Of a DNA stretch of 34,399 bases, positions 3,512 to 23,255 are shown in pieces. Position numbers and translations under genes: made by a program. Source of the stretch: a virus; IMG/VR virus record IMGVR_UViG_3300048115_000452, positions 1 through 34,399 of that record; one strand, written 5' to 3'. Below the pieces are notes generated by a model that saw nothing but the letters and a program-made list of their open reading frames with translations, was not told where the DNA came from and did not search any database. Each line of letters starts with the position of its first letter. Position 1 is the stretch's first letter.

Positions 3512-3520
3512 GCTCTCGGT
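3512..3520 (-). promoter_or_regulatory. Leader motif ACCGAGAGC, six bases before ATG 3505
   Basis: Exact copy of the nine-base motif shared by six leaders in this window; complementary to the GCUCUCGGU segment of the predicted RNA at 21229-21302. If the upstream ATG at 3538 is used, the motif would instead be read as KTES. Confidence 0.6.
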
Positions 3521-3547
3521 TTTGTGTGCCATTGGCACGGTTAAAAA

Positions 3548-3775
3548 TTATTTTTCTATTCGTCCGTTTAAAGGGAAAAGCTCGGTAGTAACCAGCGTAC
3601 CCTTTTTTATTTTACGTTTATTACTTAACTGTATATCCTCGGTAAGTGTTTCGGTTTTTCTACCTGCATAACCAAATACGGTGCGGTCTGCTTGCTCCAA
3701 TCGTATAGAGCCTACATATTTGCCCTGTACTAAATAATCTACGGAGTAACCTACTGTTTTAAATTTAACTGCCAT
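3548..3775 (-). CDS. 75-residue unknown protein, first gene after promoter P4
   Basis: I start at MAVKFKTVGYSVDYL (ATG 3775). A longer frame to 3829 would have to be read through the -7 box of P4, upstream of its transcription start, so it cannot be made from P4. The protein is short and beta-rich in appearance (VDYLVQGKYVGSIRL), with a basic stretch NKRKIKKGT. The leader carries ACCGAGAGC three bases before the start. No family recognised. As first gene of the P4 unit it should be made with the same timing as the P1 and P2 genes, that is early or middle. Confidence 0.55.
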   Translation of the reverse strand: MAVKFKTVGYSVDYLVQGKYVGSIRLEQADRTVFGYAGRKTETLTEDIQLSNKRKIKKGTLVTTELFPLNGRIEK

Positions 3776-3778
3776 TTC

Positions 3779-3787
3779 GCTCTCGGT
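3779..3787 (-). promoter_or_regulatory. Leader motif ACCGAGAGC in the P4 transcript
   Basis: Exact motif with GAA between it and ATG 3775. The next base is G, which extends complementarity with the predicted RNA at 21229-21302 to ten base pairs, the longest of the six sites. Confidence 0.65.
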
Positions 3788-3800
3788 GTTTAAATATGAT

Positions 3801-3832
3801 GCTAAATTAAACTTTATCTTTAATACCACAAA
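3801..3832 (-). promoter_or_regulatory. Repeated phage promoter P4
   Basis: On the minus strand: TTTG at 3832-3829, a 19-bp spacer, then TAATTTAGC at 3809-3801 (one base from TAnnTTTGC). The spacer holds ATTAAAGATAAAGTT, nearly the same as in P1-P3. The transcript would start near 3795 and its short leader contains ACCGAGAGC. It lies just after the large terminase gene, so the following genes can be expressed apart from it. Confidence 0.75.
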
Positions 3833-3837
3833 CTTTT

Positions 3838-3855
3838 ATTAAACTTTTTTTTTAA
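3838..3855 (-). promoter_or_regulatory. Upstream operator-like copy at P4
   Basis: The plus strand from 3838 reads ATTAAACTTTTTTTTTAA, 17 of 18 identical to the dyad block ATTAAACTTTATTTTTAA in the spacers of P1 and P2. It begins 32 bp from the equivalent block of P4 at 3806-3823. It overlaps the last codons of the terminase gene. Confidence 0.5.
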
Positions 3856-5372
3856 TTAGCTCGTCGTACTCCTTTGCTCTTTTTACGTCCAAAATGCTCA
3901 TCGCAAGCGTAACCTAGTAAATCTACATACTCGTCGTGCGTTGCTTTTGGATAGGTTGTTATTTGTGATACAAATTTATCATTCCAGCTACCTTTTACCA
4001 ATATTACACGCCCTGCCTCTACCTTTGGGCTTAATACTGCCAGCCTTGCATCTTTCCCGTCGCTCACTAAAGAGCCTTTTATAAGTATAGAACTTAAATC
4101 TGTAACCTCCTTAAGCATTTGGTCTAAACTATGCCCCGAGGCTTTAGGCTCAATATACACACGACTACGATTACCTACGCCGTACATATCGCAGTACCTA
4201 GGTGTTTCTTTAAGTAAATCGGGCATTTCTAAATAATCGCTTTTTGCGTGGCGTATATAAAGCCTATTGCGGCGTTTATCATATCCTGCAAGCATTAAGC
4301 CTGTCGGGTCGTTTGCTGTTTTCTTTGTGTACGCACCATCTACCCACAAATCCCAAACAATACCCTGCGGTACTTCGTGTTCCTCGCAGTACTCAAACCA
4401 GCTTTCTTTTACCTTACCGCCGCCTTTTGGCGTTGGCTCTTGGTCGTATTGCCCTGCAAAATCGTAAGAACCTAGTAGCTGCTCCTGCTCCTCTAGTATG
4501 CCCTCGTGTAGCCTATTATCATCTAACAAGCCGTTTACATAGTTAGCTCGTAGCTCGGGAGGTTGTACGTCGCCCGTAGCTCTTGCTGGCAGCTTTATAT
4601 TACGTATATCTTTTTTTATACCTAACAAATAACCAGTCGGGTCTTGCTCGTGTAGCCTCTGCATAATGCCAATAGTAGGCGTAACCTCCTTGTCTTTTTT
4701 ACGAGTTGGCAGCACCTTACTTGCGTGCCTGTTTGCTTTATTACGTACCTGCTCGCTATTTGCTTTCTCCACATCTATTAAATCATCCCATATAATTAAA
4801 TGGGCGTGCTTACCTATAATAGCACCGCCTACCGAGGTAAAAAACCTAACACCCCCGAAGTTATTACGCCAGTCCTTTTCATTATCTTTTGTAAGGTGCA
4901 TATACTTACCAAACTTTTGATAAAACCGAGGTTGAAAATACTTATTGTAGCGTGCGCTCTTAATAACGTCTTTACTCTTTAAGCTATGGTCGGTAGATAA
5001 ATCGTTGCTGTGGGTAGAGGTAATAATAACAAAGTGCGGAGCGTGTAGCCAAGCCCAGTTCCCTAGTTGCTGGGTAACTATGGTACTCTTTGTCATACCA
5101 GGAGGGATATTTATAATAACATCTTTGTCCTTTGGCTGCTTTGCTATTGCTTGCTCTACAATCTTTTGCAGCTCGTAGCAAAGGTATTTGATATGCCAGT
5201 TTAAATGCAGCTCTGCATCTTGGTTTATTATATCCCAAAACTCAATAAAAAATTCGTAAAAACTGTCTGCGCATTCGGCAGCTCTTACAGCGTATAATCG
5301 CTCTAGCTCTTTGGCTTGGCTCTCTACCTGTTTTTTCTTTTGTAGTATTAATTTTTCATCTTTAGTTTGCAT
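3852..5372 (-). CDS. terL: Terminase large subunit
   Basis: 506 residues, the usual length for this enzyme. It is the ATP-driven DNA-packaging motor with a headful/cleavage nuclease that docks on the portal. Walker A is PPGMTKST (residues 90-97), Walker B is LIIWDD (192-197), and RLHEQDPTGYLL near 239-250 is the conserved coupling region. The C-terminal RNase H-like nuclease starts around Asp345 (WVDGAY), with later acidic positions in IEPKASG and DEYVDLLGY. It overlaps the small subunit gene by 11 bases, typical of a terS-terL pair. The portal gene expected next is not seen; other genes follow instead, so portal and capsid must lie outside the window. Confidence 0.92.
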   Translation of the reverse strand: MQTKDEKLILQKKKQVESQAKELERLYAVRAAECADSFYEFFIEFWDIINQDAELHLNWHIKYLCYELQKIVEQAIAKQPKDKDVIINIPPGMTKSTIVTQQLGNWAWLHAPHFVIITSTHSNDLSTDHSLKSKDVIKSARYNKYFQPRFYQKFGKYMHLTKDNEKDWRNNFGGVRFFTSVGGAIIGKHAHLIIWDDLIDVEKANSEQVRNKANRHASKVLPTRKKDKEVTPTIGIMQRLHEQDPTGYLLGIKKDIRNIKLPARATGDVQPPELRANYVNGLLDDNRLHEGILEEQEQLLGSYDFAGQYDQEPTPKGGGKVKESWFEYCEEHEVPQGIVWDLWVDGAYTKKTANDPTGLMLAGYDKRRNRLYIRHAKSDYLEMPDLLKETPRYCDMYGVGNRSRVYIEPKASGHSLDQMLKEVTDLSSILIKGSLVSDGKDARLAVLSPKVEAGRVILVKGSWNDKFVSQITTYPKATHDEYVDLLGYACDEHFGRKKSKGVRRAN

Positions 5373-5946
5373 CTGCGGATTTGCCCATATTTTTAAGTAT
5401 TCTAGCCTTTTCTTTTTCTATATCCTCCTCGGACATAGGGGTAACTCCCACACCTACCGAGCCGCTAAACTCTACTTTTTTAGGTGCTGCATAACCTAAC
5501 AACTCCTTACGCCTATCCATACAAGACATAACCTTATCTAAAAATCTAACATCGCCGAAAGTTTCCTCTATACTGCGCTCCTTTATACTGCCTCCTGCTA
5601 CCGTACCGCCGTCTGTACTACCTCCGTTTATTTTAGTTGTACGCTTACCTCCTTTGCTTTTTTCCCAAGCTGCCCAGCACTCGGCTTCTATAACATCGAG
5701 CTTACGCAGTTCTCTATCTACTACCAAGTCTATCGTTTCCTTTCGCTCCTCTCGCCAATCCTGCAAAATCTTTTTTACATCGTATGCTATTTGCGAGTAA
5801 ACCAAAGTATAATCCTTTTCAGCCTCTTTATTAGCAGCGTTTAAAAGCTCTGCTATTTTTCGGTAAGGCGTGGATTTAACCAGCTCTTTAGATATAAATA
5901 GCTTATCCTCCTCTATTTGTTTGTCCGTTCTTTTATTTGCTGCCAT
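5362..5946 (-). CDS. terS: Terminase small subunit-like DNA-recognition protein
   Basis: 194 residues directly upstream of and overlapping the large terminase gene, in the classical order. The N-terminal 60 residues look like a helix-turn-helix (PYRKIAELLNAANKEAEKDY). The middle is helical (RKLDVIEAECWAAWEKSK), followed by a Gly/Thr/Ser-rich linker, then GDVRFLDKVMSCMDRRKELLGY, a segment I associate with small terminase-like proteins of Bacteroidota phages. It would bind the packaging site and hand DNA to the large subunit as an oligomeric ring. The assignment rests on position, length and domain layout. Confidence 0.7.
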   Translation of the reverse strand: MAANKRTDKQIEEDKLFISKELVKSTPYRKIAELLNAANKEAEKDYTLVYSQIAYDVKKILQDWREERKETIDLVVDRELRKLDVIEAECWAAWEKSKGGKRTTKINGGSTDGGTVAGGSIKERSIEETFGDVRFLDKVMSCMDRRKELLGYAAPKKVEFSGSVGVGVTPMSEEDIEKEKARILKNMGKSADAN

Positions 5947-5950
5947 AATT

Positions 5951-6196
5951 CTACTGATCTACTTTTACAAAATTACACTCAAAATAAGCCTTTCCTATTG
6001 CTGGGCTTATTATTAATTTGTCGCCTACTTTATAGGCTACATTTCCCGCATCTATATCGTGGTCTCGCAAGCCTACTGGCTGGCGCAACTTATTTACGTA
6101 TTTCTCTACTATTACGGGCTTACCCTTAAATCCAAGCTCTTTACATTGTTTTAGTACGCTCTCGGGTAATTCGTTGTTTTTACAATCTGCTTTCAT
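5951..6196 (-). CDS. 81-residue unknown protein
   Basis: Starts at ATG 6196, overlapping the end of the AdoMet-decarboxylase-like gene by 17 bases, and ends four bases before the small terminase gene, so it is translationally embedded in this operon. It has a small helical start with one cysteine (KADCKNN) and then short strands (KPVIVEKYV, DKLIISPAIGKAYFECNFVKV). No recognised family. The tight linkage to the decarboxylase homologue invites the idea of a partner protein, but nothing in the sequence shows it. Confidence 0.5.
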   Translation of the reverse strand: MKADCKNNELPESVLKQCKELGFKGKPVIVEKYVNKLRQPVGLRDHDIDAGNVAYKVGDKLIISPAIGKAYFECNFVKVDQ

Positions 6197-6497
6197 TCTC
6201 TTTATAGTTATAAATTGGTGTGTCTTGCTTTAACATTTTTAAGAACATTTTTTGCTTAAATCCGCTACAACTACTTAACTCTATATAAGTACCTCCCTGC
6301 TCGGGAAAAGTATGTATAGCGAAATGGCTCTCTGCCAGTAGCCATAATGCAGTATATCCTTGCGGCTCAAATTTATGTTCTACCTCATTAAGAACGGTAA
6401 AACCTGCTCGCTTAAGCAGGTTGTCAAATTTTTGTTTTAATTCCTCTTTGTCGGTGCTTTTAATCCAGCCCGAAAAGCTCCATATCTTCGCTATCAT
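6180..6497 (-). CDS. AdoMet decarboxylase-like pyruvoyl enzyme (SpeD/SpeH family)
   Basis: 105 residues, close to bacterial class 1b SpeD length. The core reads EHKFEPQGYTALWLLAESHF followed by AIHTFPEQGG. ES at 56-57 is the self-cleavage site, whose serine becomes the pyruvoyl group. His62 and Cys77 stand 5 and 20 residues after Ser57, the same spacing as Ser63, His68 and Cys83 of the Thermotoga enzyme. The enzyme would decarboxylate S-adenosylmethionine for spermidine synthesis. Some SpeD homologues, including viral ones, are known to act on ornithine or arginine instead, so the substrate is open. The N-terminus overlaps the methyltransferase gene by 38 bases. No spermidine synthase is seen nearby. 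Confidence 0.8.
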   Translation of the reverse strand: MIAKIWSFSGWIKSTDKEELKQKFDNLLKRAGFTVLNEVEHKFEPQGYTALWLLAESHFAIHTFPEQGGTYIELSSCSGFKQKMFLKMLKQDTPIYNYKENESRL

Positions 6498-7812
6498 ATT
6501 CTAGCTCTTTATAAGTGTTTTTTATCTCCTTTGGGTCGCCCTTGTAAAATACTAAAATATTCTGATGGCATTTACCTACCTTTCTGTTTTTCATAAACCT
6601 ACCTACTCGCTGCGGTAAAGTACCTACTGGCTCTACGTAAATCATTTCGTTATAAAGTATAGCCCCGTAGCTATTCCACATACGGCGTATATCATCTACA
6701 AACAAACGGTAAGCATCTTTTTTATCTCTAATATCCCCTACAACTATTACAGCAAATCGGTTTTCTTTTAGAGCCTTGTAAGCTCCTGCAAAAGAGTTGT
6801 CTAGTATTTGTAAAAACTCGGTGTAGCTTGCTTGGTTACTTGCATCGTTATCTAACTCGCTGTAAACCTCTAAATCAAAATATGGCGGGCAACTAAAATA
6901 CAAGTCTTGGCTGTTAGGTTTGAAATGCTTTGCTACATTCTGCCCGTCGTCGCATACGTATTTTGCATTAAGACCAGCAGCTTTTACTCTGCGGTTGTTT
7001 ATATCTGCCTGCTCCTTACGCAGCTCTATACCTTTGAATTTCATTTTGTAACTAGCAGCTACATACCCAAAAACCGTATCGCCCGCAAAAGTATCAAAAG
7101 CATTACCGCCCTCTATACCATACCAGTAACTTACAAGCTCTGCCATTACTGGGTCTAAAATAGAAACGCCGTCGTTAATGTTATTTATGATATTATCGCC
7201 TTTAGATAGTGTACCCTCCCTGCTTTCGCCTTGGTCTTGTATTATTTCTTTCCACGCTTTTTTACGCTGCATCCAGTAACCTTTACGGCTATCTAAAACA
7301 CTAAAAGGCGGCACTATAAATCTTTCTGTTAGTTTACGGTGCGCCTCTTGTTTTTTACTCTCTTTTACTTGCAGAGCTTTTACGTCTTGCTCGGGAATAC
7401 CCCACTTTAACAAATCTACATCTTGCCACTCCTCGGCTAGTATTTCGTGCGACCAGTAACCAGTTAGAGCGTTAGCTGTAATATTTGCCTTTTCTCTTTG
7501 CGCATCATTCCAGCGTACAGCTCTATAATTAAATTTTTGCTCTTGCCAAATTACGTGTCCTATCGCTACCGTTCCCTGTTTTGTTGGCTCTTTGTACTTC
7601 TCACTTATAACTACCTCGCACTCCTCTAGGTTTATGATTTTACTACGCTGGTTTCCGCTTATTATCTCGCCTGTATTTAAATCGTGTACTATACCACTAA
7701 TATCCCCAAGCTCTAGCATATTTTTTTCTAGCTCTCTTTTTCGGTCGTCTGTTATATGCCTTGGGTTTTTGTGATACTCTTTTACGTTAGTTATTTTCTG
7801 CTTTTTCGCCAT
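6460..7812 (-). CDS. ParB-like nuclease/DNA methyltransferase fusion
   Basis: 450 residues from MAKKQKITNV (ATG 7812; an ATG at 7821 is three codons earlier). The N-terminal ~110 residues form a ParB/Srx-like domain with SGNQRSK in the place of the ParB box. The C-terminal half is an amino-methyltransferase with FDTFAGDTVFGYVAASY as the SAM-binding region and CPPYFDLEVYSE as catalytic motif IV (S/D-PPY type), so N6-adenine or N4-cytosine methylation is expected. Such ParB-methyltransferase fusions are widespread in phages and probably mark phage DNA against host restriction. It is the second methyltransferase gene here, beside the split one at 14505-15394. The last 38 bases overlap the SpeD-like gene. 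Confidence 0.82.
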   Translation of the reverse strand: MAKKQKITNVKEYHKNPRHITDDRKRELEKNMLELGDISGIVHDLNTGEIISGNQRSKIINLEECEVVISEKYKEPTKQGTVAIGHVIWQEQKFNYRAVRWNDAQREKANITANALTGYWSHEILAEEWQDVDLLKWGIPEQDVKALQVKESKKQEAHRKLTERFIVPPFSVLDSRKGYWMQRKKAWKEIIQDQGESREGTLSKGDNIINNINDGVSILDPVMAELVSYWYGIEGGNAFDTFAGDTVFGYVAASYKMKFKGIELRKEQADINNRRVKAAGLNAKYVCDDGQNVAKHFKPNSQDLYFSCPPYFDLEVYSELDNDASNQASYTEFLQILDNSFAGAYKALKENRFAVIVVGDIRDKKDAYRLFVDDIRRMWNSYGAILYNEMIYVEPVGTLPQRVGRFMKNRKVGKCHQNILVFYKGDPKEIKNTYKELEYDSEDMELFGLD

Positions 7813-7861
7813 TTGTCGCACTTTCGTTTTATTGGTGTGGTATTTTATTGATTAAATGCAG

Positions 7862-8626: not shown

Positions 8627-8627
8627 T

Positions 8628-8975: not shown

Positions 8976-8978
8976 TTT

Positions 8979-13772: not shown

Positions 13773-14107
13773 ATTTTCCCTTTTACTTTGTCTATTAACT
13801 TATCCATAGCTCGGTTATAATAAGCCTCGAAATCTTGGTCGTTAATATGTTCAAACCAGTATTCGTAAATAGCTCCTCGTAGTTTTTTGCTTGCGCTTTG
13901 TCCTTTGTCGTTTACCCCTATACGTTTATCACGCATAGCCAGCTCTGCCTCTTGCGTAATTTTATCGGCACTAAACAATAAATAACCTGGTGCTTTCTCT
14001 ATATAATGCTCGTCTATTTCGCTTACTGTATCGGTAGTAGTAAATATTACCTTTGTTTGTGTTTCCTGTCGCTCTGTTTTAGCGTGCTTAACTGTAATTT
14101 TTAACAT
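13769..14107 (-). CDS. 112-residue unknown protein with the regulated leader motif
   Basis: Starts at ATG 14107, six bases after the leader motif ACCGAGAGC. The N-terminal half has strands and many threonines (KVIFTTTDTVSEIDEHYI); the rest is helical and charged (EAYYNRAMDKLIDKVKG). No family recognised. A near-match to a -7 box (TATAAATTGC) lies about 20 bases upstream of the motif, but no promoter of the P1-P4 type is present. Confidence 0.6.
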   Translation of the reverse strand: MLKITVKHAKTERQETQTKVIFTTTDTVSEIDEHYIEKAPGYLLFSADKITQEAELAMRDKRIGVNDKGQSASKKLRGAIYEYWFEHINDQDFEAYYNRAMDKLIDKVKGKI

Positions 14108-14113: not shown

Positions 14114-14122
14114 GCTCTCGGT
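14114..14122 (-). promoter_or_regulatory. Leader motif ACCGAGAGC before ATG 14107
   Basis: Exact motif, six bases from the start codon, in a gap of about 50 bases between genes. Nine base pairs possible with the predicted RNA at 21229-21302. Confidence 0.6.
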
Positions 14123-15085: not shown

Positions 15086-15394
15086 TCATAGCCAAACCGT
15101 TAAACCTAACTTTGTGTAACACTCCTTTATTTGCCTTGGCGAGTATGGAGGGTCAAACAAAACCACATCAACGCTATTACTCTTTACGGTTTTTAAAAAC
15201 TCTAAAGCATCTAAACTAAAATCACATTTATAAACTGGGTCTATATCGTTAGTTACTTTAGCCATACGGTTTTTATTAGCAAAAGGGTCTATACTGTAAT
15301 CGTTCGTACTTAAATGCCTGCCTATAAAATTACGTATTGCTTTAATATCAAACGTATTGCTATTAGGCATTTCCCACTCTCTAGTTATCTTCAT
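15086..15394 (-). CDS. N-terminal fragment of a split adenine-type DNA methyltransferase
   Basis: 102 residues: MKITREWEMPNSNTFDIKAI, IDPFANKNRMAKVTNDIDP, then VDVVLFDPPYSPRQIKECYT. SIDPFAN and NDIDP form the SAM-binding part, and DPPY is catalytic motif IV. The frame then leaves the family consensus after KLGLTV and stops two codons later (WL). The missing half is at 14505-14741. The start overlaps the resolvase gene by 14 bases. Alone, the fragment has the catalytic motif but lacks the remaining fold. Confidence 0.75.
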   Translation of the reverse strand: MKITREWEMPNSNTFDIKAIRNFIGRHLSTNDYSIDPFANKNRMAKVTNDIDPVYKCDFSLDALEFLKTVKSNSVDVVLFDPPYSPRQIKECYTKLGLTVWL

Positions 15395-15920
15395 TAAATA
15401 ACTCCTTTTGCGCAGCAGGAGGTAAACGCTCCATTACCCAGTTAATATCTGTGTTAAATTTAAGCCTACCGAAATGAACAATACAAAGCGCATCACTATT
15501 CCATAACGTAGCCTTAACCTCGGGGTAGTATTGTGCAGCAGCAGCTTTATACCTATCCTTACGGGCTTTTTTATCCTCGCCTTTTTTTCGCAAGTTTAAA
15601 CCGTGCTGCCAGCTCTGCGGGTAAACCTGTACAAAAGGTATTTTTGCCAAAGTTAATACTGTCTTAAGCTGCTCAAAATTAGCCAGCATTTTATCTATAC
15701 CAAAACGCTTACCGCCTGTATCGGTGTCGCTTTTCCAGCTTGATACTTTTTCTATAAAGCATATTGGTTTCTCGTAAGTCTCTTTAACGTAGTTTAGATA
15801 CTCTGCTAGATCACTTACATTTTTTGGCATCTTAGCTACACTTATACCAGCTTTGTAATTGTATAGTGCTATACCTCCGCCAGCTCCAGGGTCGATGCCT
15901 ATTATTGTTTTTACTTTCAT
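15381..15920 (-). CDS. RuvC-like Holliday-junction resolvase
   Basis: 179 residues with an RNase H fold typical of RuvC: IGIDPGAGGGIALY (Asp10), CFIEKVSSW (Glu57), and WNSDALCIVHF (Asp143) as acidic metal ligands. A conserved block KKARKDRYKAAAAQYYPEV precedes the last motif. It would cut branched intermediates during phage recombination or packaging. The start ATG 15920 overlaps the stop of the preceding gene by four bases, and the leader motif variant ACCGAGAGT lies within the end of that gene, two bases before the ATG. Confidence 0.85.
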   Translation of the reverse strand: MKVKTIIGIDPGAGGGIALYNYKAGISVAKMPKNVSDLAEYLNYVKETYEKPICFIEKVSSWKSDTDTGGKRFGIDKMLANFEQLKTVLTLAKIPFVQVYPQSWQHGLNLRKKGEDKKARKDRYKAAAAQYYPEVKATLWNSDALCIVHFGRLKFNTDINWVMERLPPAAQKELFNEDN

Positions 15921-16849
15921 TTACTCTCGGTTTTAATTTTTATTACTGTTTTTATATCCGTTTTCTCCGCTATAAGTTTATCGAAATAATCCTTTATAGC
16001 CTTGTTATTTTCTATGCTCTCGGCTTGGCTTAAAAGTATAGTGTCAATCTTATTTTTATGATAATTTGCGATTACGCCCTTTTTTTGTATGCGGGGTGCA
16101 TCACTAACGATAAAAGTTCGATACGCTTTGTCAATGGCTGATTTGCTCGGCTCGGGTTTTTTCTCTAAAGCTCCCTGCTGTATAAACTCATTTATAAAGA
16201 TGCTTAATATAAATCTAGGCTCTACTCCGTTATCTCGGTAATTATAAAACGCCTTGTATATATCCTCTATAAATGCCTTTTTGTTGGCTGCCTTTTGCTC
16301 CTCCGTAATTACATTAACTGGGGCAGGCAGAGCTTTACGAGCCTTAAACCAAACTTTGTTCTTTTTAGCTCTGTAAGCGTTTAGTATTTTAGTGTAGTAC
16401 TCCAAGCTAAATGCTTGGTAGTGGTTTTTATCGGGGTTGCCGTTTTTATCTTTTGGTAGCCATTCGTCAAGCTCGCCAACTGCTGCCAACTCAAACGCTA
16501 GTTTTACCTCCTTAAAACTAAAATCTTTGTAGTATTTTTTTAGTGTATCAAAAAAACGAGTAGCATCGTATTTCATAACCTCGGCGTTATTCCAATCCTT
16601 AACCCCTATATCACGGCAAATAAATTTAGTAGCAGTAGCTACCTTTTTTACCAGCTCTTGGTCGGCTATCTTTCTTATAGGCGTTTCTATTCCCGCCTGC
16701 GCAATCATTAAATCGTTATCTGATAATTTTATTTGCACCTCCGCAGCTTGTAGTAGTGCTGCTTTTTGCTCTAGGTAGTAATCTTGTTTGTAAGTTAATA
16801 GAGCATTGCTCTTTTTTACGGCTGGTAACATTGTTATCTTTTTTGTCAT
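15917..16849 (-). CDS. Replication-associated protein of unknown type, first gene after promoter P3
   Basis: 310 residues from MTKKITMLPAVKKSNALLTY. It is helical and basic, with RFFDTLKKYYKDFSFKEVKL, WLPKDKNGNPDKNHYQAFSL and a long helical C-terminus ending KTESK. The first ATG at 16849 is only one base from the -7 box of P3, so transcripts from P3 would begin after it. The methionine at residue 7 (ATG 16831) is then the likelier start for that promoter, and 16849 could be used only on readthrough RNA. The position before the resolvase suggests a helicase loader or replication protein. The KTESK end is the leader motif of the next gene read in frame. Confidence 0.6.
   Translation of the reverse strand: MTKKITMLPAVKKSNALLTYKQDYYLEQKAALLQAAEVQIKLSDNDLMIAQAGIETPIRKIADQELVKKVATATKFICRDIGVKDWNNAEVMKYDATRFFDTLKKYYKDFSFKEVKLAFELAAVGELDEWLPKDKNGNPDKNHYQAFSLEYYTKILNAYRAKKNKVWFKARKALPAPVNVITEEQKAANKKAFIEDIYKAFYNYRDNGVEPRFILSIFINEFIQQGALEKKPEPSKSAIDKAYRTFIVSDAPRIQKKGVIANYHKNKIDTILLSQAESIENNKAIKDYFDKLIAEKTDIKTVIKIKTESK
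15923..15931 (-). promoter_or_regulatory. Leader motif variant ACCGAGAGT before the resolvase start
   Basis: One base differs from the other five sites (final C to T). The change keeps pairing with the predicted RNA at 21229-21302 through a G-U wobble. It is two bases from ATG 15920 and lies inside the upstream coding sequence. Confidence 0.5.
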
Positions 16850-16850: not shown

Positions 16851-16883
16851 GCTAATTTAAACTTTATTTTTAATATACACAAA
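16851..16883 (-). promoter_or_regulatory. Repeated phage promoter P3
   Basis: TTTG at 16883-16880, a 20-bp spacer containing ATTAAAAATAAAGTT, and TAAATTAGC at 16859-16851. It matches P1, P2 and P4 except for one extra spacer base and an altered -7. It has no clear second dyad copy upstream and no ACCGAGAGC leader. Its start point should be near 16845. Confidence 0.7.
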
Positions 16884-16937: not shown

Positions 16938-16943
16938 AAAACA

Positions 16944-17252: not shown

Positions 17253-17290
17253 TATCTATTAAGTTTTGTTTTTAATTCACGCTACTGCGG

Positions 17291-17312: not shown

Positions 17313-17319
17313 TTTGCTG

Positions 17320-18143: not shown

Positions 18144-18184
18144 ATTAAAATATTTTTTTATTTGAGTTCTGCACTACTCTTGGT

Positions 18185-18193
18185 GCAAATATA
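18185..18193 (-). promoter_or_regulatory. -7 element TATATTTGC before the terminator hairpin
   Basis: Perfect TAnnTTTGC match just after the stop of the Gp3-like gene. No TTTG at the expected distance. A start near 18180 would give a leader of about 85 bases containing the hairpin at 18094-18143. Confidence 0.4.
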
Positions 18194-18197
18194 TAAA

Positions 18198-18911
18198 TTA
18201 TTCATTACCTGTACCTAATTGCGGAGCTGGGGGTACTTGTAACATTGTACCCTTAACTGCCTCTATATTTTCCTTGCTTTGATTTGGCACTAAACTAACA
18301 ACTGGGTAACGGCTTGCTACTCCTGGCTTTTGGCTCTTTGCAAATACTACGTTTAAATCAAAAATAACACCTCTTACGCTGCCTCTACTTTGTAACATAG
18401 CATCAAATGTATCACGTATAGCAGGTATCGTACTAGCCACTCCTTTAGTACTGTACTCCCAGTAACCAGCAATATCTTTGATTTTAGGCATTATAAACCT
18501 TAAAGATAGGGTAACCTCCCAGCCTTTGCCGTTCCTTACCTTATCATCTACCTTTTGCATTATTTCGGGGTGTTTCTCCGTAGTGTACTCCTCGTACTTT
18601 TGCGCCTTTGCGTTCCATACCTCAAACGTTTCGCCGTCGCCTCTTGCATATAGCTTACCCTGTTTATCCCTATACTCGTATCGCTCCTCGCACATACTAG
18701 CAGGGCTATCCTCCCAAAAAACTATCTGTATAGTATTTGGCTTGTTAGGGTATGCTGCATTAAACATACTGGCATACTTACCAGTAGCTAAAAAATAGTC
18801 GCAACTCCTAGGCTGCCCTTTGTCGTTTTTAAATCCTGTTTTTATTAACCCAACCCTAGGCAGCTTAAAGCCGCCTATTTGCTCGGGTCTTTTAATTCTA
18901 CCTTTTGCCAT
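18198..18911 (-). CDS. Gp3-like (recombination-directionality-factor fold) phage protein
   Basis: 237 residues. The N-terminal half shows RVGLIKTGFKNDKGQPRSCD, YFLATGKYASMF, KPNTIQIVFWEDS, then ERYEYRDKQGKLYARGDGE. This series is that of the phage Gp3-like family, in which the phiC31 gp3 protein controls integrase direction; many members occur in phages without an integrase and have an unknown main role. No integrase is seen here, so I do not infer excision control. It may bind DNA in replication. It lies four bases after the preceding gene and ends operon 2. Confidence 0.5.
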   Translation of the reverse strand: MAKGRIKRPEQIGGFKLPRVGLIKTGFKNDKGQPRSCDYFLATGKYASMFNAAYPNKPNTIQIVFWEDSPASMCEERYEYRDKQGKLYARGDGETFEVWNAKAQKYEEYTTEKHPEIMQKVDDKVRNGKGWEVTLSLRFIMPKIKDIAGYWEYSTKGVASTIPAIRDTFDAMLQSRGSVRGVIFDLNVVFAKSQKPGVASRYPVVSLVPNQSKENIEAVKGTMLQVPPAPQLGTGNE

Positions 18912-18914
18912 ATC

Positions 18915-19187
18915 TTAAGCGTTAAAATAACTCTCAAACAATTTATCCGAAATCTCTAACCCCTCGTTTTTGCAATGCTCCATAAAAGCAGCTACTACTT
19001 TGGTGTTATGCTCTGTCTTTTGCTCCTCGTTATTTAAGTTAATAATACTATTTGCTGGGGCAGGTACAAAAAACCCACCCGTACAATTATCTTCATTATC
19101 AAAAGTAAATACAGCAGCACCGTTTTCTATATACTCTACTACTGCAAAACCTCTTACGTCGTTTCCTAAACTATTAAATAAATCCAT
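18915..19187 (-). CDS. 90-residue unknown protein
   Basis: MDLFNSLGNDVRGFAVVEYI opens a beta-rich half with acidic turns (FDNEDNCTGGFFVPAPANSI), then a linker and a helical end (KVVAAFMEHCKNEGLEISDK). No catalytic motif is clear. Two or three bases separate it from both neighbours, so it is part of a tightly packed operon with the 98-residue gene and the Gp3-like gene. Confidence 0.55.
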   Translation of the reverse strand: MDLFNSLGNDVRGFAVVEYIENGAAVFTFDNEDNCTGGFFVPAPANSIINLNNEEQKTEHNTKVVAAFMEHCKNEGLEISDKLFESYFNA

Positions 19188-19189
19188 AA

Positions 19190-19486
19190 TTATTTAGTTA
19201 TTGGTGTTATCTCTACGCCCGCCTCTGTAAGTACAGTTACGCACATATCTTTAATAAAACCATCCTCTAGGCTGTCGTGAAACATTTCTACTAACTGGCG
19301 TAGTTTTGGCGCAGCAGCCATAAGTTTAGCGTTTGCTATTGCCTCCTCTCTACTAACATCGGCAAAGGTGTTAACCTCTGCCAATAATTTAGTTTTGTCT
19401 TTAGTTTTTATTAACTGCTCGTTGCTGTTATCGTTATAATCCTCGTAAGTCCAATCGCCTTGCGTATGTCCGTTTATAAATGCCAT
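19190..19486 (-). CDS. 98-residue phage protein with ANAKLMAAAP motif
   Basis: Contains REEAIANAKLMAAAPKLRQL, a segment very common in small phage proteins of unknown function (ANAxLIAAAPELL). The N-terminus is a short beta domain (HTQGDWTYEDYND). Its start overlaps the stop of the exonuclease gene by one base (TAATG). A role in recombination is suggested only by its place after the exonuclease. Confidence 0.6.
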   Translation of the reverse strand: MAFINGHTQGDWTYEDYNDNSNEQLIKTKDKTKLLAEVNTFADVSREEAIANAKLMAAAPKLRQLVEMFHDSLEDGFIKDMCVTVLTEAGVEITPITK

Positions 19487-20553
19487 TACTTTACTGGTTT
19501 TTCGTTATCGGTTTTACGTTTTTTAACCAACTCGCTTAACGTCATTTCTACAACGTTGTTATCCAGCCCAGCATCCAAGTTTATAACACCCTCTACAATA
19601 GTAACGGTATTAATACGTTTATCGCTCTCTATACGTGCCAGCTCTACAAGGTACTGCAACTTGTTACGGCTCTTTGCCTCGGTTTGGTCTTTTAGGTTGT
19701 ACGTTGGCGTAGCTCCTCGCCAATCTTTAGGCGACCAGTTAAATACTCGCTCTACTTGCTTGTTAGGGAAATGGTGTTGCCACATTTCCGTATATGCTTG
19801 TAGCTGTATCTCGTGTTCCTCGTAAAAGCCTTTACGCCCACTTTTAAAATCTACAATAGCGATAAATGTTTGCTCTTTTTTGGTAGCCTTTGGTTTACCC
19901 TTGTTTACACCGCTCTTATAAGTTTCGCCCCAGTAACCTTTTACCTCTTGTGTCATTTCGCATACCAAATCAATAGCACCAGCGTAGCCGTCGGTAGGGT
20001 GTGTTAGCACTATCTCAATAGCTAAAGGTTTTACCTTGCAATCTATCATAAACTGCGCAAATGCTAGTATATCCTTTTTAAGTTCGTCGGCGTGGTTAAT
20101 AAAATCTACTGGCAGCTTTTCTGCCTCTATAAACGCCTTAAGTTTTTCCTTAAGCGTTCCAGTATCGTACTTACGTGCTATAAGCAGCTCCGCTATTTCT
20201 GTGTGCATAAAAGTACCATAGTCCGCTCGCTCCTGTGCATAGTTACGGCTTTCCTCGTAACCCATATCTGCAATCCACTTAATTAAGTGCGGGCTGGTTG
20301 GCATTGTTTGCTTTATCATCGTTGTAACCGATGTAAAAAATACTGGCTCTTGTGCCTCGTTAAAAGTGTAGTAATACCTGTGCTTACCTCCTTTTAATCG
20401 GTAAACCATTTCGGGCTGCTCTACCAGCGCATCGGTATTAAAAAATACTGCCACCATTTCCTCCGCAGTTAATCCTTGTGCCAACTCATACACTCCCGCA
20501 GGCTGGTCGTTCATCATTTCCTCAAATGCTTTGTTTTCGCTCTCGTTACTCAT
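19486..20553 (-). CDS. PD-(D/E)XK exonuclease, RecB/Cas4/lambda-Exo-like
   Basis: 355 residues. The nuclease motifs are complete: YGTFMHTEIAELL with His117, AIEIVLTHPTDGYAGAIDLV with Glu180 and Asp195, IAIVDFKSGR with Asp235-x-Lys237, and EEHEIQLQAY with Gln250/Tyr254. This is the RecB-family nuclease core used by phage recombination exonucleases to resect double-strand ends. With SSB, the resolvase and HNH it forms a recombination set; no annealing protein is recognised, although the neighbouring Gp3-like or 211-residue protein could serve. Codons 3-5 carry ACGAGAGC, one base shorter than the leader motif. Confidence 0.85.
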   Translation of the reverse strand: MSNESENKAFEEMMNDQPAGVYELAQGLTAEEMVAVFFNTDALVEQPEMVYRLKGGKHRYYYTFNEAQEPVFFTSVTTMIKQTMPTSPHLIKWIADMGYEESRNYAQERADYGTFMHTEIAELLIARKYDTGTLKEKLKAFIEAEKLPVDFINHADELKKDILAFAQFMIDCKVKPLAIEIVLTHPTDGYAGAIDLVCEMTQEVKGYWGETYKSGVNKGKPKATKKEQTFIAIVDFKSGRKGFYEEHEIQLQAYTEMWQHHFPNKQVERVFNWSPKDWRGATPTYNLKDQTEAKSRNKLQYLVELARIESDKRINTVTIVEGVINLDAGLDNNVVEMTLSELVKKRKTDNEKPVK

Positions 20554-20554
20554 T

Positions 20555-20722
20555 TTATTGCTCTGTTTTAATTGTTAAACATACTATACTCATTAATCCG
20601 CTCACTACCATTATAAAATACTGGTGTGCAGCTCCGTAAAATGCAGCCGCTATAAAAGCACCTACACAAATAAGCCCTAACAAAAAGGCAAATATTCTAT
20701 TTACTATACGCTCCGCTCTCAT
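20555..20722 (-). CDS. 55-residue membrane protein
   Basis: ATG 20722 overlaps the end of the regulator gene by 26 bases, and TAA lies at 20555-20557, one base before the exonuclease start. After a basic N-terminus (RAERIVNR) come two hydrophobic stretches, FAFLLGLICVGAFIAAAFYG and FIMVVSGLMSIVCLT. It therefore looks like a small two-helix inner-membrane protein. Its early-operon position makes it a candidate for host-takeover or exclusion, which is inference. Confidence 0.6.
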   Translation of the reverse strand: MRAERIVNRIFAFLLGLICVGAFIAAAFYGAAHQYFIMVVSGLMSIVCLTIKTEQ

Positions 20723-21002
20723 ACTTATCAAGTGTTTTAGGGTTCATAGGCTTTATGCCAAATAAAAAGTTTGCATCTACGCCAGTTACAGCGCATATAT
20801 GTTTTACCCAAGCTGGGTCAACCCTAGTAGTCTTACCGTTTACTAGGTTGCTCATATTAACGGGCAAGGTTTTAGGCTTTGCTCCCTTAAATAACTCTTT
20901 AGCCAAATCTATTTTTTGTATAGTTGGCTCGCTTTTAGCCTTGGTCTTTTCGTGGTAATCCAAAGCCTCGTTAATCCTTAATGCAGGTTTGTTTTCGCTC
21001 AT
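20697..21002 (-). CDS. XRE-like helix-turn-helix transcription regulator
   Basis: I start at MSENKPALRINEALDYH (ATG 21002), giving 101 residues. Longer frames to 21101 run over the preceding small gene. Residues about 35-80 form the helix-turn-helix (IDLAKELF, then VNMSNLVNGKTTRVDP, then VKHICAVTGVDANFLFGI), like Cro/CI-type repressors of the XRE fold with an insertion. The tail PMNPKTLDKYES is short, so it is Cro-sized rather than a CI-type two-domain repressor. It is the second gene after P2, whose spacer and upstream region carry repeated dyads; it is the best local candidate to bind them. Confidence 0.7.
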   Translation of the reverse strand: MSENKPALRINEALDYHEKTKAKSEPTIQKIDLAKELFKGAKPKTLPVNMSNLVNGKTTRVDPAWVKHICAVTGVDANFLFGIKPMNPKTLDKYESGAYSK

Positions 21003-21018
21003 ATAAAATTTATTAAAA

Positions 21019-21153
21019 TTAATCGTAGTAATCTGCCTTTTGGCACTCTTTAGAGCAGTAGTATTTATTATCTGTCGGCTCGCCGCAGAAACTACACTCA
21101 TTATCTTTTTCCTCGTCGTAAGGGTTTGCTGTTTTCCAGTCGTCGTATGTCAT
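21019..21153 (-). CDS. 44-residue zinc-ribbon protein
   Basis: ATG at 21153, TAA at 21019-21021: MTYDDWKTANPYDEEKDNE, then CSFCGEPTDNKYYCSKECQK and ADYYD. Cys pairs C-x2-C and C-x4-C around a short beta turn make a treble-clef or zinc-ribbon knuckle like those of MYND/HIT-type or DUF2116 proteins. It is first in the P2 unit and has the exact leader motif three bases before its start. Its small size means many gene finders skip it. Confidence 0.7.
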   Translation of the reverse strand: MTYDDWKTANPYDEEKDNECSFCGEPTDNKYYCSKECQKADYYD

Positions 21154-21156
21154 TTT

Positions 21157-21165
21157 GCTCTCGGT
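21157..21165 (-). promoter_or_regulatory. Leader motif ACCGAGAGC in the P2 transcript
   Basis: Exact motif, AAA, then ATG 21153. It is about 70 bases downstream of the predicted RNA gene that carries the complementary sequence. Confidence 0.65.
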
Positions 21166-21176
21166 TTAATTATACC

Positions 21177-21208
21177 GCTAAATTAAACTTTATTTTTAAT
21201 ATAGCAAA
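21177..21208 (-). promoter_or_regulatory. Repeated phage promoter P2
   Basis: TTTG at 21208-21205, a 19-bp spacer and TAATTTAGC at 21185-21177. From the spacer's ATTAAAAATAAAGTT to the end of the -7 box it is identical to P1. Transcripts would start near 21171 and carry the ACCGAGAGC leader. It follows the terminator at 21230-21263 directly, marking an operon boundary. Confidence 0.8.
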
Positions 21209-21213
21209 TGATA

Positions 21214-21231
21214 ATTAAAATTTATTTTTAA
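21214..21231 (-). promoter_or_regulatory. Upstream operator-like dyad at P2
   Basis: Minus strand TTAAAAATAAATTTTAAT: perfect dyad TTAAAA-ATAAA-TTTTAA, differing from the spacer element of P2 by one base (T for G). It begins 32 bp upstream of that element, about three helical turns. Confidence 0.55.
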
Positions 21232-21302
21232 AAAAGAAACCCCAGCACCGAAGTACTAGGGTTGGTCGCAGATATACCGAGAGCGGTCGGATATAAGCGG
21301 AG
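21229..21302 (-). ncRNA. Predicted small RNA with anti-leader hairpin
   Basis: Between a consensus promoter (21308-21336) and a strong terminator (21230-21263) lies a stretch of about 74 nt with no reading frame. Its 5' part folds as ACCG-CUCU-CGGU, flanked by AUAU arms, with CUCU in the loop. The segment GCUCUCGGU (21284-21276) is the exact complement of the leader motif ACCGAGAGC present at five phage genes, and a sixth site pairs with one G-U. The 3' part is the C(UUCG)G-capped terminator with a U-tail. The layout (short, own promoter, exposed pyrimidine-rich loop, intrinsic terminator) is that of bacterial trans-acting small RNAs. Pairing next to start codons would be expected to hinder, or by unfolding help, translation. 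Alternative: an untranslated leader or DNA operator with chance complementarity. Confidence 0.6.
21230..21263 (-). terminator. Intrinsic terminator with UUCG tetraloop
   Basis: Minus strand AACCCTAGTAC-TTCG-GTGCTGGGGTT: eleven pairs with two G-U wobbles and a canonical C(UUCG)G loop, followed by TCTTTTTT. It ends the predicted RNA and separates operon 1 from P2. Confidence 0.85.
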
Positions 21303-21307
21303 TGCTA

Positions 21308-21336
21308 CAAATATAGACTTTTTTTAGGTTTACAAA
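21308..21336 (-). promoter_or_regulatory. Consensus promoter of the predicted small RNA
   Basis: TTTG at 21336-21333, 17 bp, TATATTTG at 21315-21308. It matches the Bacteroidota primary-sigma consensus at every fixed position. The -33 box overlaps the last codons of the 62-residue gene. The start would be near 21302. Unlike P1-P4 its spacer lacks the dyad. Confidence 0.7.
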
Positions 21337-21518
21337 ACCTTTTTAATCCATTTTTGCATCTGCATACCGCTAGGCATAGTAACCAGCCACAGCTCTTGCT
21401 CCTTATTTGCAGCTAGTTTACGTACTAGCGTTACCTCTGCCTCTGCTTGGGTTTCAAACATAACGTCCTTATAAACCGTTTTTTGTTGCCCCTCTTGTAA
21501 TTGTGTGTTTTTAGCCAT
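21330..21518 (-). CDS. 62-residue unknown protein, last gene of operon 1
   Basis: MAKNTQLQEGQQKTVYKDVM, then a helix (AEAEVTLVRKLAANKEQE) and strands (LWLVTMPSGMQMQKWIKKVL). It is compact and amphipathic with no cysteines. A TATATTTGT element lies 16-24 bases before the ATG, so it may have its own promoter. Its stop codon is shared with the small RNA's promoter region. No family recognised. Confidence 0.55.
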   Translation of the reverse strand: MAKNTQLQEGQQKTVYKDVMFETQAEAEVTLVRKLAANKEQELWLVTMPSGMQMQKWIKKVL

Positions 21519-21533
21519 TTTAAGCGTGTTTCT

Positions 21534-21542
21534 ACAAATATA
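21534..21542 (-). promoter_or_regulatory. -7 element TATATTTGT before the 62-residue gene
   Basis: Matches TAnnTTTG and would give a leader of only about ten bases before ATG 21518. No TTTG box at 17-21 bp upstream. Confidence 0.35.
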
Positions 21543-21545
21543 CTA

Positions 21546-21716
21546 CTATTTGGTTAGCTCATTACTAAAACGCTTAATATACACCTGCGCATAACTAGCC
21601 ATAGCCTGTCTAATAACTACATAAAGCTCCGTATGCTTTTCTTTAAATTCCTCTAGGTTAAAATCTGTAAACTCTTTTTTAGCCTCTTGCTCTAGTATTT
21701 TATCTGCCTCGCTCAT
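21546..21716 (-). CDS. 56-residue helical unknown protein
   Basis: ATG 21716, TAG 21546-21548: MSEADKILEQEAKKEFTDFN, then a helix EEFKEKHTELYVVIRQAMAS and YAQVYIKRFSNELTK. It is entirely helical and charged; its start overlaps the end of the DUF6283-like gene by 17 bases, a coupled arrangement common in this operon. No function can be assigned. Confidence 0.55.
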   Translation of the reverse strand: MSEADKILEQEAKKEFTDFNLEEFKEKHTELYVVIRQAMASYAQVYIKRFSNELTK

Positions 21717-22020
21717 TGTTTTTGTGATGATTTACGCACTCCTTTTCAGTATCGAAAATTAAATGCCTGTTAATTATTTTTAGTTTCCTGCCAAACGCTA
21801 GAGCCATACGGTAAAAAGCATTACCCTTACCTTTTATAGCTATATGCCCAGCGCATTGTCTTTTTTGTTTATCCTCGCCGTATGCTGTTTTATGGCACAC
21901 AAAACTATCCGTCTCTAGTATCTCCTGCATACGCTCTGCTCCTAACCATCCCTTTTTAGTGTCTTTTATAAACGGGCAGTTATCGCAAGGCGCAGGCATA
22001 AATGGTAATTTATCGAACAT
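21700..22020 (-). CDS. DUF6283-like cysteine-rich protein
   Basis: 106 residues. The pattern PAPCDNCPFIKDTKKGWLG, FVCHKTAYGEDKQKRQCAGH and then IAIKGKGNAFYRMALAFG is that of DUF6283, small phage and actinobacterial proteins with CxxCPF, CHKT and CAGH motifs that should bind a metal. Known members are uncharacterised. The protein overlaps the coiled-coil gene by 11 bases. Confidence 0.7.
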   Translation of the reverse strand: MFDKLPFMPAPCDNCPFIKDTKKGWLGAERMQEILETDSFVCHKTAYGEDKQKRQCAGHIAIKGKGNAFYRMALAFGRKLKIINRHLIFDTEKECVNHHKNNERGR

Positions 22021-22282
22021 CTAACAACTGGTTTTTTAAATCATCTACTTGCTCCTCCAACTCCTCTAGTCTCTGCTCTAAATCTTCCACATTGTATTTT
22101 TCGGTTTCTAAATCACTTTCCAAATCTTCTATTTGGTTTTCCGCCTCTTTACGCATATCCTCATTGCTAGAGCGTACAGCTTCAAAATTATTTTCTAAAT
22201 CTTGGTATATACCGTCCACATAATTTTTAATAAAATTAGCTTTTTGCTCCCCCTCTAGCATTGGGCTACACTCATCTAACAT
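22010..22282 (-). CDS. Coiled-coil protein, probably longer at the N-terminus
   Basis: From ATG 22282 the protein has 90 residues, of which the last 55 form a continuous acidic coiled coil (NQIEDLESDLETEKYNVEDL). The frame stays open upstream to ATA 22369, adding 29 residues (MGFDYGYTC-type start written IGFDYGYTCPDIDRG). The extension is Cys- and Asp-rich and reads like a real protein N-terminus, recalling small phage coiled-coil proteins that start near YTCPxID. An in-frame stop lies six bases further. I therefore suspect an ATA start six bases after the RNase HI stop. Function unknown. Confidence 0.6.
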   Translation of the reverse strand: MLDECSPMLEGEQKANFIKNYVDGIYQDLENNFEAVRSSNEDMRKEAENQIEDLESDLETEKYNVEDLEQRLEELEEQVDDLKNQLLDVR

Positions 22283-22372
22283 ATCGCTTAAATGGCTCTC
22301 TAAATCTGTTTTTATACCGTCTATCCCTCTATCTATATCGGGGCAGGTATAACCGTAATCAAATCCTATACT

Positions 22373-22852
22373 TTAATTATTTTTTTTACAACTTACACCG
22401 CCGTCGTTAATATCTAGCCTACCAACATTTGCCAGCTTATCAGCCATTTCGTTAAACTCGTTACCATTATGCCCTCGCACCCAAGTAACATTTAACGTCG
22501 TGCCTCTATCTTTATGGCTCTGCCTTACTCTGCAAAACCTTTCCCATACGCCAGCATTCATCTTGCTACTCAATTTATTTTTAGCAATCCAGTTATCTAG
22601 CCATTGGTTAATCCCGTCAACGCAGTATTTACTATCGCTGTAAATATCTATCGTATGCCCTCCGTCTATGTTCTCTAAAGCCTTTATTATTGCTTTTAGC
22701 TCCATACGGTTATTAGTGGTGTCTCTATACTTTCCACTACTATATTTTTTCATATAGTTTTCGCCTTTAAATTTTGCTGTTATTACATAGCCGTAACTCC
22801 CTACGCCTATCTCGTTGTTACAGCTCCCGTCTGTGTACACGCTTATTATCAT
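22373..22852 (-). CDS. rnhA: Ribonuclease HI
   Basis: 159 residues. All type-1 RNase H residues are present: YTDGSCNN (Asp8), NRMELKAII (Glu51), IYSDSKYCVDGI (Asp73), VRGHNGNEFNEMADKLA (His128 and Asp138). It degrades RNA in RNA-DNA hybrids, removing primers during phage DNA replication. The C-terminus (VSCKKNN) is short. The start overlaps the stop of a small zinc-ribbon gene (ATGA). Confidence 0.93.
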   Translation of the reverse strand: MIISVYTDGSCNNEIGVGSYGYVITAKFKGENYMKKYSSGKYRDTTNNRMELKAIIKALENIDGGHTIDIYSDSKYCVDGINQWLDNWIAKNKLSSKMNAGVWERFCRVRQSHKDRGTTLNVTWVRGHNGNEFNEMADKLANVGRLDINDGGVSCKKNN

Positions 22853-22995
22853 ATAAAATAATTATGGTTTGTTTTTATTATAACACGCTTACCGCATTTT
22901 TTGCAGGTGTAAACGTGTTTCTGTACAAAGCTATGTTTATATTTTAGCTTTTTACTTTTGCAGCTCTCGCTATCGCAAATAAGTTGCTGGCTCAT
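22849..22995 (-). CDS. 48-residue zinc-ribbon protein
   Basis: ATG 22995 (overlapping the preceding TAA by one base) to TGA 22849: MSQQLICDSESCKSKKLKYK, then a strand HSFVQKHVYTCKKCGKRVII and KTNHNYFI. Cys pairs C-x4-C and C-x2-C make a zinc ribbon typical of small nucleic-acid-binding proteins. It is packed between two genes with one- and four-base overlaps, which supports coding despite its size. Confidence 0.65.
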   Translation of the reverse strand: MSQQLICDSESCKSKKLKYKHSFVQKHVYTCKKCGKRVIIKTNHNYFI

Positions 22996-23243
22996 TATTT
23001 GGAGTAAAACGTAACTCTTACCCCACTACGTAGTTTACTTGTGTGTTTGTCTAATCCACTATTAAAAGCACGCTCTACAAACTTATTAGTAAATTCTAAA
23101 CCCACTAACCTAATTAAACCCGATACACCTAAAGCGGTGTTTAAGTTCTTGCCGTACTTGTTAGTAGTATGGGCTTTAATTCTAAAGTTTTGGTTAATTT
23201 CTTTTGTGGAGTACTTAAGTCCGTCATAAATTGAAAATTCCAT
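22995..23243 (-). CDS. 82-residue unknown protein, first gene of operon 1
   Basis: MEFSIYDGLKYSTKEINQNF, then a basic stretch, ALGVSGLIRLVGLEFTNKFV, and a C-terminal part KHTSKLRSGVRVTFYSK. Mixed alpha/beta, basic. Being first after P1, with the exact ACCGAGAGC leader, it should be among the earliest and most tightly controlled products. No recognised family. Confidence 0.6.
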   Translation of the reverse strand: MEFSIYDGLKYSTKEINQNFRIKAHTTNKYGKNLNTALGVSGLIRLVGLEFTNKFVERAFNSGLDKHTSKLRSGVRVTFYSK

Positions 23244-23246
23244 TTT

Positions 23247-23255
23247 GCTCTCGGT
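23247..23255 (-). promoter_or_regulatory. Leader motif ACCGAGAGC in the P1 transcript
   Basis: Exact motif, AAA, then ATG 23243: the same leader end as at P2, although the coding regions are unrelated. Confidence 0.65.

Follow-up and report, generated by a model that had tools for sequence, protein, structure and literature searches.

We analyzed a motif of nine nucleotides (nt) that precedes start codons in a virus genome, IMG/VR record IMGVR_UViG_3300048115_000452, together with a predicted small RNA (sRNA) gene from the same genome. The window is the whole record of 34,399 bases, with nearly all genes on the minus strand. The exact motif, ACCGAGAGC, occurs in the window six times (both strands counted), the expected number being 0.11 (100 dinucleotide shuffles, maximum 1), and five of the copies stand 3 or 6 nt upstream of ATG. 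A preliminary description of this DNA had named six motif sites (3512, 3779, 14114, 15923, 21157 and 23247, with spacers to the ATG of 6, 3, 6, 2, 3 and 3 nt, respectively). Five of these are exact, while the one at 15923-15931 is ACCGAGAGT, differing from the motif by one base. The sixth exact copy, absent from that list, lies on the plus strand at 21276-21284. A probable seventh start site, AACGAGAGC, is located just within the exonuclease gene at 20539-20547, its core CGAGAG beginning 8 nt downstream of the A of the ATG. Comparison of starts with the rest of the sequence, as suggested in the description, was run on the window and bears out the association: ACCGAGAG occurs seven times, six times ahead of a start and once as the opposite-strand copy.

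In the gene direction, the copy at 21276-21284 reads GCTCTCGGT, which is the leader motif in exact reverse complement. This sequence is part of a predicted sRNA located in an unannotated gap, bordered by the end of one open reading frame (ORF) at 21330 and the start of another at 21153. The cassette (Table 1) comprises a predicted promoter with a -7 box of the Bacteroidota type, TATATTTG, then a 5' hairpin and an intrinsic terminator, whose 11-pair hairpin has a T-run after it on the gene strand. Two hairpins form when the 73 nt from 21304 to 21232 are folded, with an energy of -28.4 kcal/mol (z-score -5.53), and none of 200 shuffled sequences is equally stable. The complement of the motif is carried by the loop CCGCUC plus the neighboring stem strand UCGGU. 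On the gene strand, this exact complement is found once each in the window, in Croceibacter phage P2559S and in IMG/VR records G002 and G003. Seven 9-mers have at least three leader copies in the window, and a gene-strand complement exists only for ACCGAGAGC (in the cassette) and for AAAACCGAG (elsewhere).

A known Rfam family was considered and rejected, as covariance models yielded no match in the window (the only sub-threshold one, sR52 with E-value 0.36, lies outside the cassette) and, at gathering thresholds, none in L173 or L175, C4 antisense RNA included.

Table 1. Predicted sRNA cassette, target sites and genes, and promoter copies in the window, and the mycobacteriophage hairpin discussed in the text
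Feature	Position	Strand	Basis or remark
Predicted promoter of sRNA: TTG, 17-nt spacer, -7 box TATATTTG	21308..21335	-	sequence
Predicted sRNA, ~74 nt, 5' end approximate	21232..21305	-	fold and homologues
5' hairpin: outer stem CGC/GCG, inner stem CCGA/UCGG, loop CCGCUC	21267..21299	-	fold, consensus
Seed GCTCTCGGT, exact reverse complement of the motif	21276..21284	-	sequence; CGCTCTCGGT invariant among 12 aligned sRNAs
Intrinsic terminator of sRNA with T-run	21232..21263	-	fold
Predicted target site ACCGAGAGC	3512..3520	-	6 nt before ATG at 3505
Predicted target gene, primase-like	2624..3505	-	phrog_19458, E-value 2e-25
Predicted target site ACCGAGAGC	3779..3787	-	3 nt before ATG at 3775
Predicted target gene, 75 amino acids (aa)	3548..3775	-	without family match
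Predicted target site ACCGAGAGC	14114..14122	-	6 nt before ATG at 14107
Predicted target gene, 112 aa	13769..14107	-	without family match
Predicted target site ACCGAGAGT	15923..15931	-	2 nt before ATG at 15920; final base would pair as G-U
Predicted target gene, Holliday junction resolvase	15381..15920	-	phrog_1770, E-value 7e-31
Probable target site AACGAGAGC	20539..20547	-	codons 3-5 of exonuclease gene
Probable target gene, exonuclease	19486..20553	-	phrog_298
Predicted target site ACCGAGAGC	21157..21165	-	3 nt before ATG at 21153; immediately 3' of sRNA gene
Predicted target gene, 44-aa cysteine-rich protein	21019..21153	-	phrog_35839
Predicted target site ACCGAGAGC	23247..23255	-	3 nt before ATG at 23243
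Predicted target gene, 82-aa protein	22995..23243	-	phrog_32997; target in both family branches
Promoter copy TTG-N19-TAATTTAG	3802..3831	-	upstream of 3779 site
Promoter copy TTG-N19-TAATTTAG	21178..21207	-	upstream of 21157 site
Promoter copy TTG-N19-TAATTTAG	23270..23299	-	upstream of 23247 site
Anaya (cluster K mycobacteriophage) inverted SAS hairpin loop	L292:44871-44883, record ~59870-59882

The family comprises 14 genomes, ranging from that of the marine phage P2559S to those of gut phages of Bacteroides and Parabacteroides. Branch A includes the window, P2559S and IMG/VR records G001-G004, all sharing the same cassette. P2559S, with its counterpart of the predicted sRNA at 30533-30606, is the nearest named relative; of the 25 kb queried, 26% is matched at 74.7% identity. 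Branch B is formed by homologues from Elizabethkingia phage TCUEAP2, Alistipes phage AS73P1, Parabacteroides phage PDS1, Bacteroides phages C1_85S2P and BKO1-3, and IMG/VR records G006 and G007. The fourteenth member, IMG/VR record G013, is described below. The branch-B pattern matched five IMG/VR records, of which G006 and G007 have the cassette; G005, G008 and G009 lack it and were dropped. In branch B the orientation of the sRNA relative to the genes is opposite, but it still lies between a TANNTTTG box and a terminator. At the sequence level, the TANNTTTG box 5' of the hairpin and the T-tailed terminator hairpin are present in 14/14 cassettes; the scan required the box, and 13 of the 14 members had been found earlier without that requirement. 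TTG stands upstream of the box at N19 in eight and at N17 in two of the 14. Among 12 aligned sRNAs the core CGCTCTCGGT is invariant in all, while flanks, loop lengths and terminator stems vary; the stems diverge in sequence yet remain hairpins across the family.

As proposed in the preliminary description, the motif was sought in related phages, and it proved to be associated with starts in P2559S and the branch-A IMG/VR records. The top start-associated 8-mer is ACCGAGAG or CCGAGAGC in all six branch-A genomes. In P2559S, six of the seven ACCGAGAG copies stand before ORF starts and the other one belongs to the sRNA; on the gene strand, all nine CGAGAG occurrences fall within -20..+14 of annotated starts, an interval covering 4.4% of positions (log10 p -12.2). 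The start site is kept at similar genes in several genomes of this branch, namely those for the 82-aa protein, the 44-aa protein, resolvase (where the site is AACGAGAGC in P2559S and G002), the 112-aa protein (similar proteins in P2559S, G002, G003 and G004, whose genes likewise bear the site) and exonuclease. Further predicted targets in P2559S are gp49 (annotated with a helix-turn-helix domain), gp02, gp04 and gp20 (virion protein).

In branch B the fold differs: the GGUUA portion is paired in the stem, and the loop presents AUCGCUCUC. If leaders are set by pairing with the exposed loop, branch-B leaders are expected to move from ACCGAGAGC toward GAGAGCGA, and this is what we observed. At annotated starts of AS73P1, the most enriched 6-mers (those without ATG) are GAGCGA (10/20) and AGAGCG (9/16), and in C1_85S2P the same two rank second and third (7/20 and 6/15), while ACCGAG is not enriched in either phage (1/34 and 0/26, respectively). 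With ORF-based starts, GAGCGA and AGAGCG rank first and second in AS73P1, C1_85S2P and PDS1, and GAGCGA ranks second in G007 and ninth in G006. The sites themselves (ATGAGAGCGA, AGAGCGATG, or ones farther upstream) lie before, abutting or just after the AUG, and at the RecN-like ATPase gene the distance between site and start differs among phages. Such variable placement around the AUG fits blocked initiation rather than a spaced ribosome signal. In gut relatives, exonuclease-like genes have ATGAGAGCGA or ATGAGAGC at their start; other predicted targets in this branch are genes for a replication initiator, the RecN-like ATPase, a polymerase exonuclease, a radical SAM enzyme, a MazG-like protein, an amidase and the 82-aa protein. 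Most predicted targets with a named function in the window, P2559S and branch B belong to DNA replication and recombination.

A covariance model built for branch B (R1) identified the additional member in G013 (E-value 5e-7 in the G013 genome), with the seed altered to UCGCUCAAAG. Elsewhere in that genome, the longest match to this seed is TTTGAGCGATTAT, a 13-nt perfect complement reaching into the ATG of a 55-aa ORF, and a second match of 9 nt adjoins another ATG. The register shift between the branches, together with G013, supports a coordinated change of seed and start sites. Complementarity, the succession of promoter, hairpin and terminator, conservation of this cassette and the matching shift of seed and sites can all be read directly from the genomes.

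Four phages without the sRNA served as controls. In P2559Y, a phage with the same Croceibacter host strain as P2559S, the 6-mers CGAGAG, GAGAGC and ACCGAG are not enriched at starts, and neither are they in phi17:1, tant8-1 or B40-8. In a survey of the 82-aa protein (80 loci examined of 94 found), GAGAGC precedes the start in seven loci, six of which have the sRNA; in the remaining one, the 19-kb fragment L219, it was not found. When the sRNA was cofolded with 44 starts, five of six leader sites fell into the top eight. Duplex and cofold energies favor the sites but are not decisive alone. The cross table of 8-nt matches between sRNAs and genomes was noisy due to the inclusion of A+T-rich flanks.

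Wider searches for prophage or host copies were set aside. An exact branch-A pattern gave no matches in genome contigs. The exact branch-B pattern gave six, in unrelated taxa, with about seven expected by chance for 18 bases (an estimate), and the branch-B model gave one in 395 genomes of one phylum, at chance level (E-value 0.005). Matches listed in a scan of viral contigs for the motif plus ATG were mostly chance ones and were not used.

Taken together, these observations suggest, with a probability of roughly 0.8, that the phage encodes a trans-acting sRNA that pairs at the start codons of a set made up mainly of replication and recombination genes and most likely represses them. Since the motif exactly complements the exposed hairpin loop of this predicted sRNA, it is most likely a docking site by which one viral RNA would control translation of many viral genes. 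An sRNA of about 74 nt would be made from its own host-type promoter and end at the intrinsic terminator. The loop CCGCUC of the 5' hairpin would nucleate on GAGC of the leader, then the short stem would open and the seed extend into the UCGGU strand, forming 8-9 pairs with ACCGAGAGC. The duplex would cover the start region and block 30S binding on at least six, probably seven, mRNAs of the window. As the pairing would cover the ribosome landing site, translational repression is the most likely effect, and, given pairing, we consider it probable. The result would be a coordinated lowering of early or middle proteins and a post-transcriptional switch in the infection cycle. Transcription of the sRNA, its pairing in the cell, the repression and its timing are what we infer from the sequence features above.

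These data also bear on what the preliminary description had made of the motif. Its suggestion of recognition by RNA or protein holds, with RNA favored by the exact complement in the hairpin of a conserved predicted phage sRNA. Its point that the ACCG half needs an explanation of its own is borne out, and one is offered by the predicted pairing, ACCG being part of the 9-nt complement of the seed. It had also claimed that the motif is more than part of a copied promoter, and we agree: the TTG-N19-TAATTTAG copy stands upstream of sites 3779, 21157 and 23247 and not of 3512, 14114 and 15923, so that a copied promoter as the sole cause, lacking in three of six sites, was rejected. A fourth copy of this promoter repeat, at 16855-16881, lies directly 5' of an ATG (~16848) and has no leader motif; as the repeat abuts the ATG, this gene may be transcribed almost leaderless.

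Among the other explanations, the main rival is that the same sRNA pairs with the leaders but activates or stabilizes the mRNAs, for instance through recruitment of a factor or protection of the 5' ends. Three of the leaders are so short that the motif falls within ~20 nt of where transcription is predicted to begin, and a duplex there could shield the 5' end. The other three sites of the window have no promoter copy of their own, which makes a location close to the 5' end of a transcript improbable for them. In gut relatives, sites overlap the AUG or come after it, and pairing at such places would prevent initiation. We regard activation as unlikely. The position next to start codons would equally fit a translational repressor protein of the RegA kind that binds ACCGAGAGC in mRNA, the intergenic copy being unrelated or a decoy. 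This is quite improbable, as the lone copy is opposite in sense and lies within a promoter-terminator cassette in every family member, and the register of the motif moves with the cassette loop between branches.

The location of three sites just downstream of the copied promoter might point to a DNA operator of a phage transcription factor with one inverted intergenic site. The motif, however, follows start codons rather than promoters, sites of gut phages fall inside the first codons, and the inverted site is in all cases closely followed by a terminator and shows an RNA fold, which leaves this explanation with very little probability. Finally, the motif stands at Shine-Dalgarno distance in phages of Bacteroidia, whose ribosomes, as a passage of PMC9976891 states, fail to recognize Shine-Dalgarno sequences, and it might be an alternative recognition signal of Bacteroidota ribosomes. 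The lack of enrichment in P2559Y, with the same host, and in B40-8, phi17:1 and tant8-1, and the sites located after the AUG, often so in gut relatives, which could not serve in this way, make such a signal extremely improbable. On the same grounds a host ribosome signal of the Shine-Dalgarno type was rejected, in agreement with the preliminary description, which had denied that the motif is one.

Several observations weigh against repression by a start-pairing sRNA. Start enrichment is weaker in G003 (CCGAGA 5/21), weak in TCUEAP2 and BKO1-3, and weak for hexamers in G013 (TGAGCG 4/18), so that the argument from the changed seed of G013 rests on two sites. The TTG is missing or off-spacing in six of 14 cassettes. 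GAGGGCG variants (in GGAGGGCG) are confounded with the Shine-Dalgarno-like GGAGG and were not counted as proof. R1 finds branch-A RNAs at the correct positions weakly (E-values 0.02-0.63 over 1.16 Mb), and matches in non-family L179 (0.1) and L271 (0.44) score among them; with such matches intermixed, the R1 evidence is supportive rather than a proof. In cofolding, the start at 15920 ranks 16th and two starts lacking the motif rank third and fourth, and in the P2559Y control, duplex energies of some starts match those of weak targets. One-mismatch sites are biased toward G-U-compatible changes with no statistical significance (p 0.08-0.40). In IMG/VR record G011 (L217:3326-3406), the branch-B terminator is kept, while the hairpin and the seed seem to have been lost; the leader of its 82-aa gene is still GAGAGTGA, a possible case of recent sRNA loss.

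Some other elements were observed at start sites and in gene gaps. Just upstream of the 3512 site, at 3526-3538, the window has a perfect short hairpin GTGCC-AAT-GGCAC. Its counterpart in P2559S (L130 ~1985-2005) is a hairpin of another sequence (GCCCC..GGGGC) in the same place, and hence the stem seems to be kept by compensating changes. Many relatives have a different leader (82-aa genes among L210-L282, as well as L173 ~23000-23060 and 24990-25030): a G+C hairpin such as GACGGGGCGTTTTCCCCGGA precedes the start and is perhaps another start-site control element. A scan of PD691P3, tant8-1 and B40-8 for promoter-terminator pairs, aimed at diverged sRNAs, revealed several cassettes, with no matching leader motif recognized by eye; in Parabacteroides phage PD691P3, a cassette of ~100 nt from promoter to terminator in a gene gap (L193:35668-35780) is a candidate for another sRNA.

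RegA of phage T4 is a protein translational repressor acting at start regions of many early mRNAs. The element described here is similar in being one phage factor at many start regions, and differs in being a predicted RNA rather than a protein. According to review passages (PMC12197685), the phage RNAs c4 (P1/P7) and sar (P22) pair with phage ant mRNA and block translation initiation, c4 pairing around the ribosome binding site, with the complementary stretches likely in RNA loops. Here, too, a predicted phage RNA, known from sequence, would pair with phage mRNA to block translation initiation; unlike c4 and sar, each acting on ant mRNA, it is one RNA with at least six scattered targets and without an Rfam match. 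VpdS (VP882) and PreS (lambda), in the same passages (PMC12197685), work with Hfq on host RNAs, VpdS on phage RNAs as well. The predicted sRNA resembles them in acting in trans on mRNAs, while its evident target set is the start sites of the phage itself.

A possible further parallel is provided by the motif named SAS (Start-Associated Sequences) of cluster K mycobacteriophages. As described in passages of PMC3203893, it is short and asymmetric, keeps one orientation and is placed 3-7 bp upstream of many starts that are otherwise unrelated, while Anaya, Adephagia, Angelica and CrimD each have one inverted copy; the role of SAS was stated as not known in 2024, in a passage of PMC11373665. The position at starts and the lone inverted copy are common to both systems; unlike the window motif, the SAS consensus GGGATAGGAGCCC contains a Shine-Dalgarno sequence, and the two motifs differ in sequence. 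The passages on SAS in these two papers propose no sRNA, and none of the titles and abstract openings found in a search of the open-licence literature links SAS to one. An unannotated gap of Anaya has a strong hairpin whose 10-nt loop, CCTCCTATCC, contains the sole inverted copy, and the hairpin region is present in 149 phage records. Among 11 cluster K loci examined, the hairpin has the exact loop complement of SAS in six, the loop is changed in Amgine, Ekdilam and Unicorn, and it is lost in Yuna and Marshawn. Covariation of seed and targets was not found in Unicorn and Amgine, where the loop is changed and SAS is not. The parallel is thus a possible lead, with mixed evidence. It may be, though we hold this view only tentatively and lean somewhat against it, that an undescribed class of viral RNAs blocking start codons is widespread from seawater to the human gut, SAS (at least in Anaya-like phages) being an independent instance.

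In the open-licence literature we found no account of such sRNAs in Bacteroidota phages. The phage sRNAs in the passages of the review PMC12197685 have one target or are largely host-directed, while here there is an apparent conserved regulon of the phage's own genes. If the tentative reading above holds, a single sRNA would command translation across the replication and recombination module as a master switch, and would be to RNA what RegA of T4 is to proteins. What unites the regulon would be a seed visible in the genome itself, providing a control layer that can be tested in Bacteroidota phages, both gut and marine, whose hosts seldom rely on Shine-Dalgarno signals. A start-site motif, combined with one inverted copy of it that stands alone in the loop of a hairpin, may also serve as a recipe for recognizing other systems of this kind, and offers a candidate explanation for the mycobacteriophage SAS.

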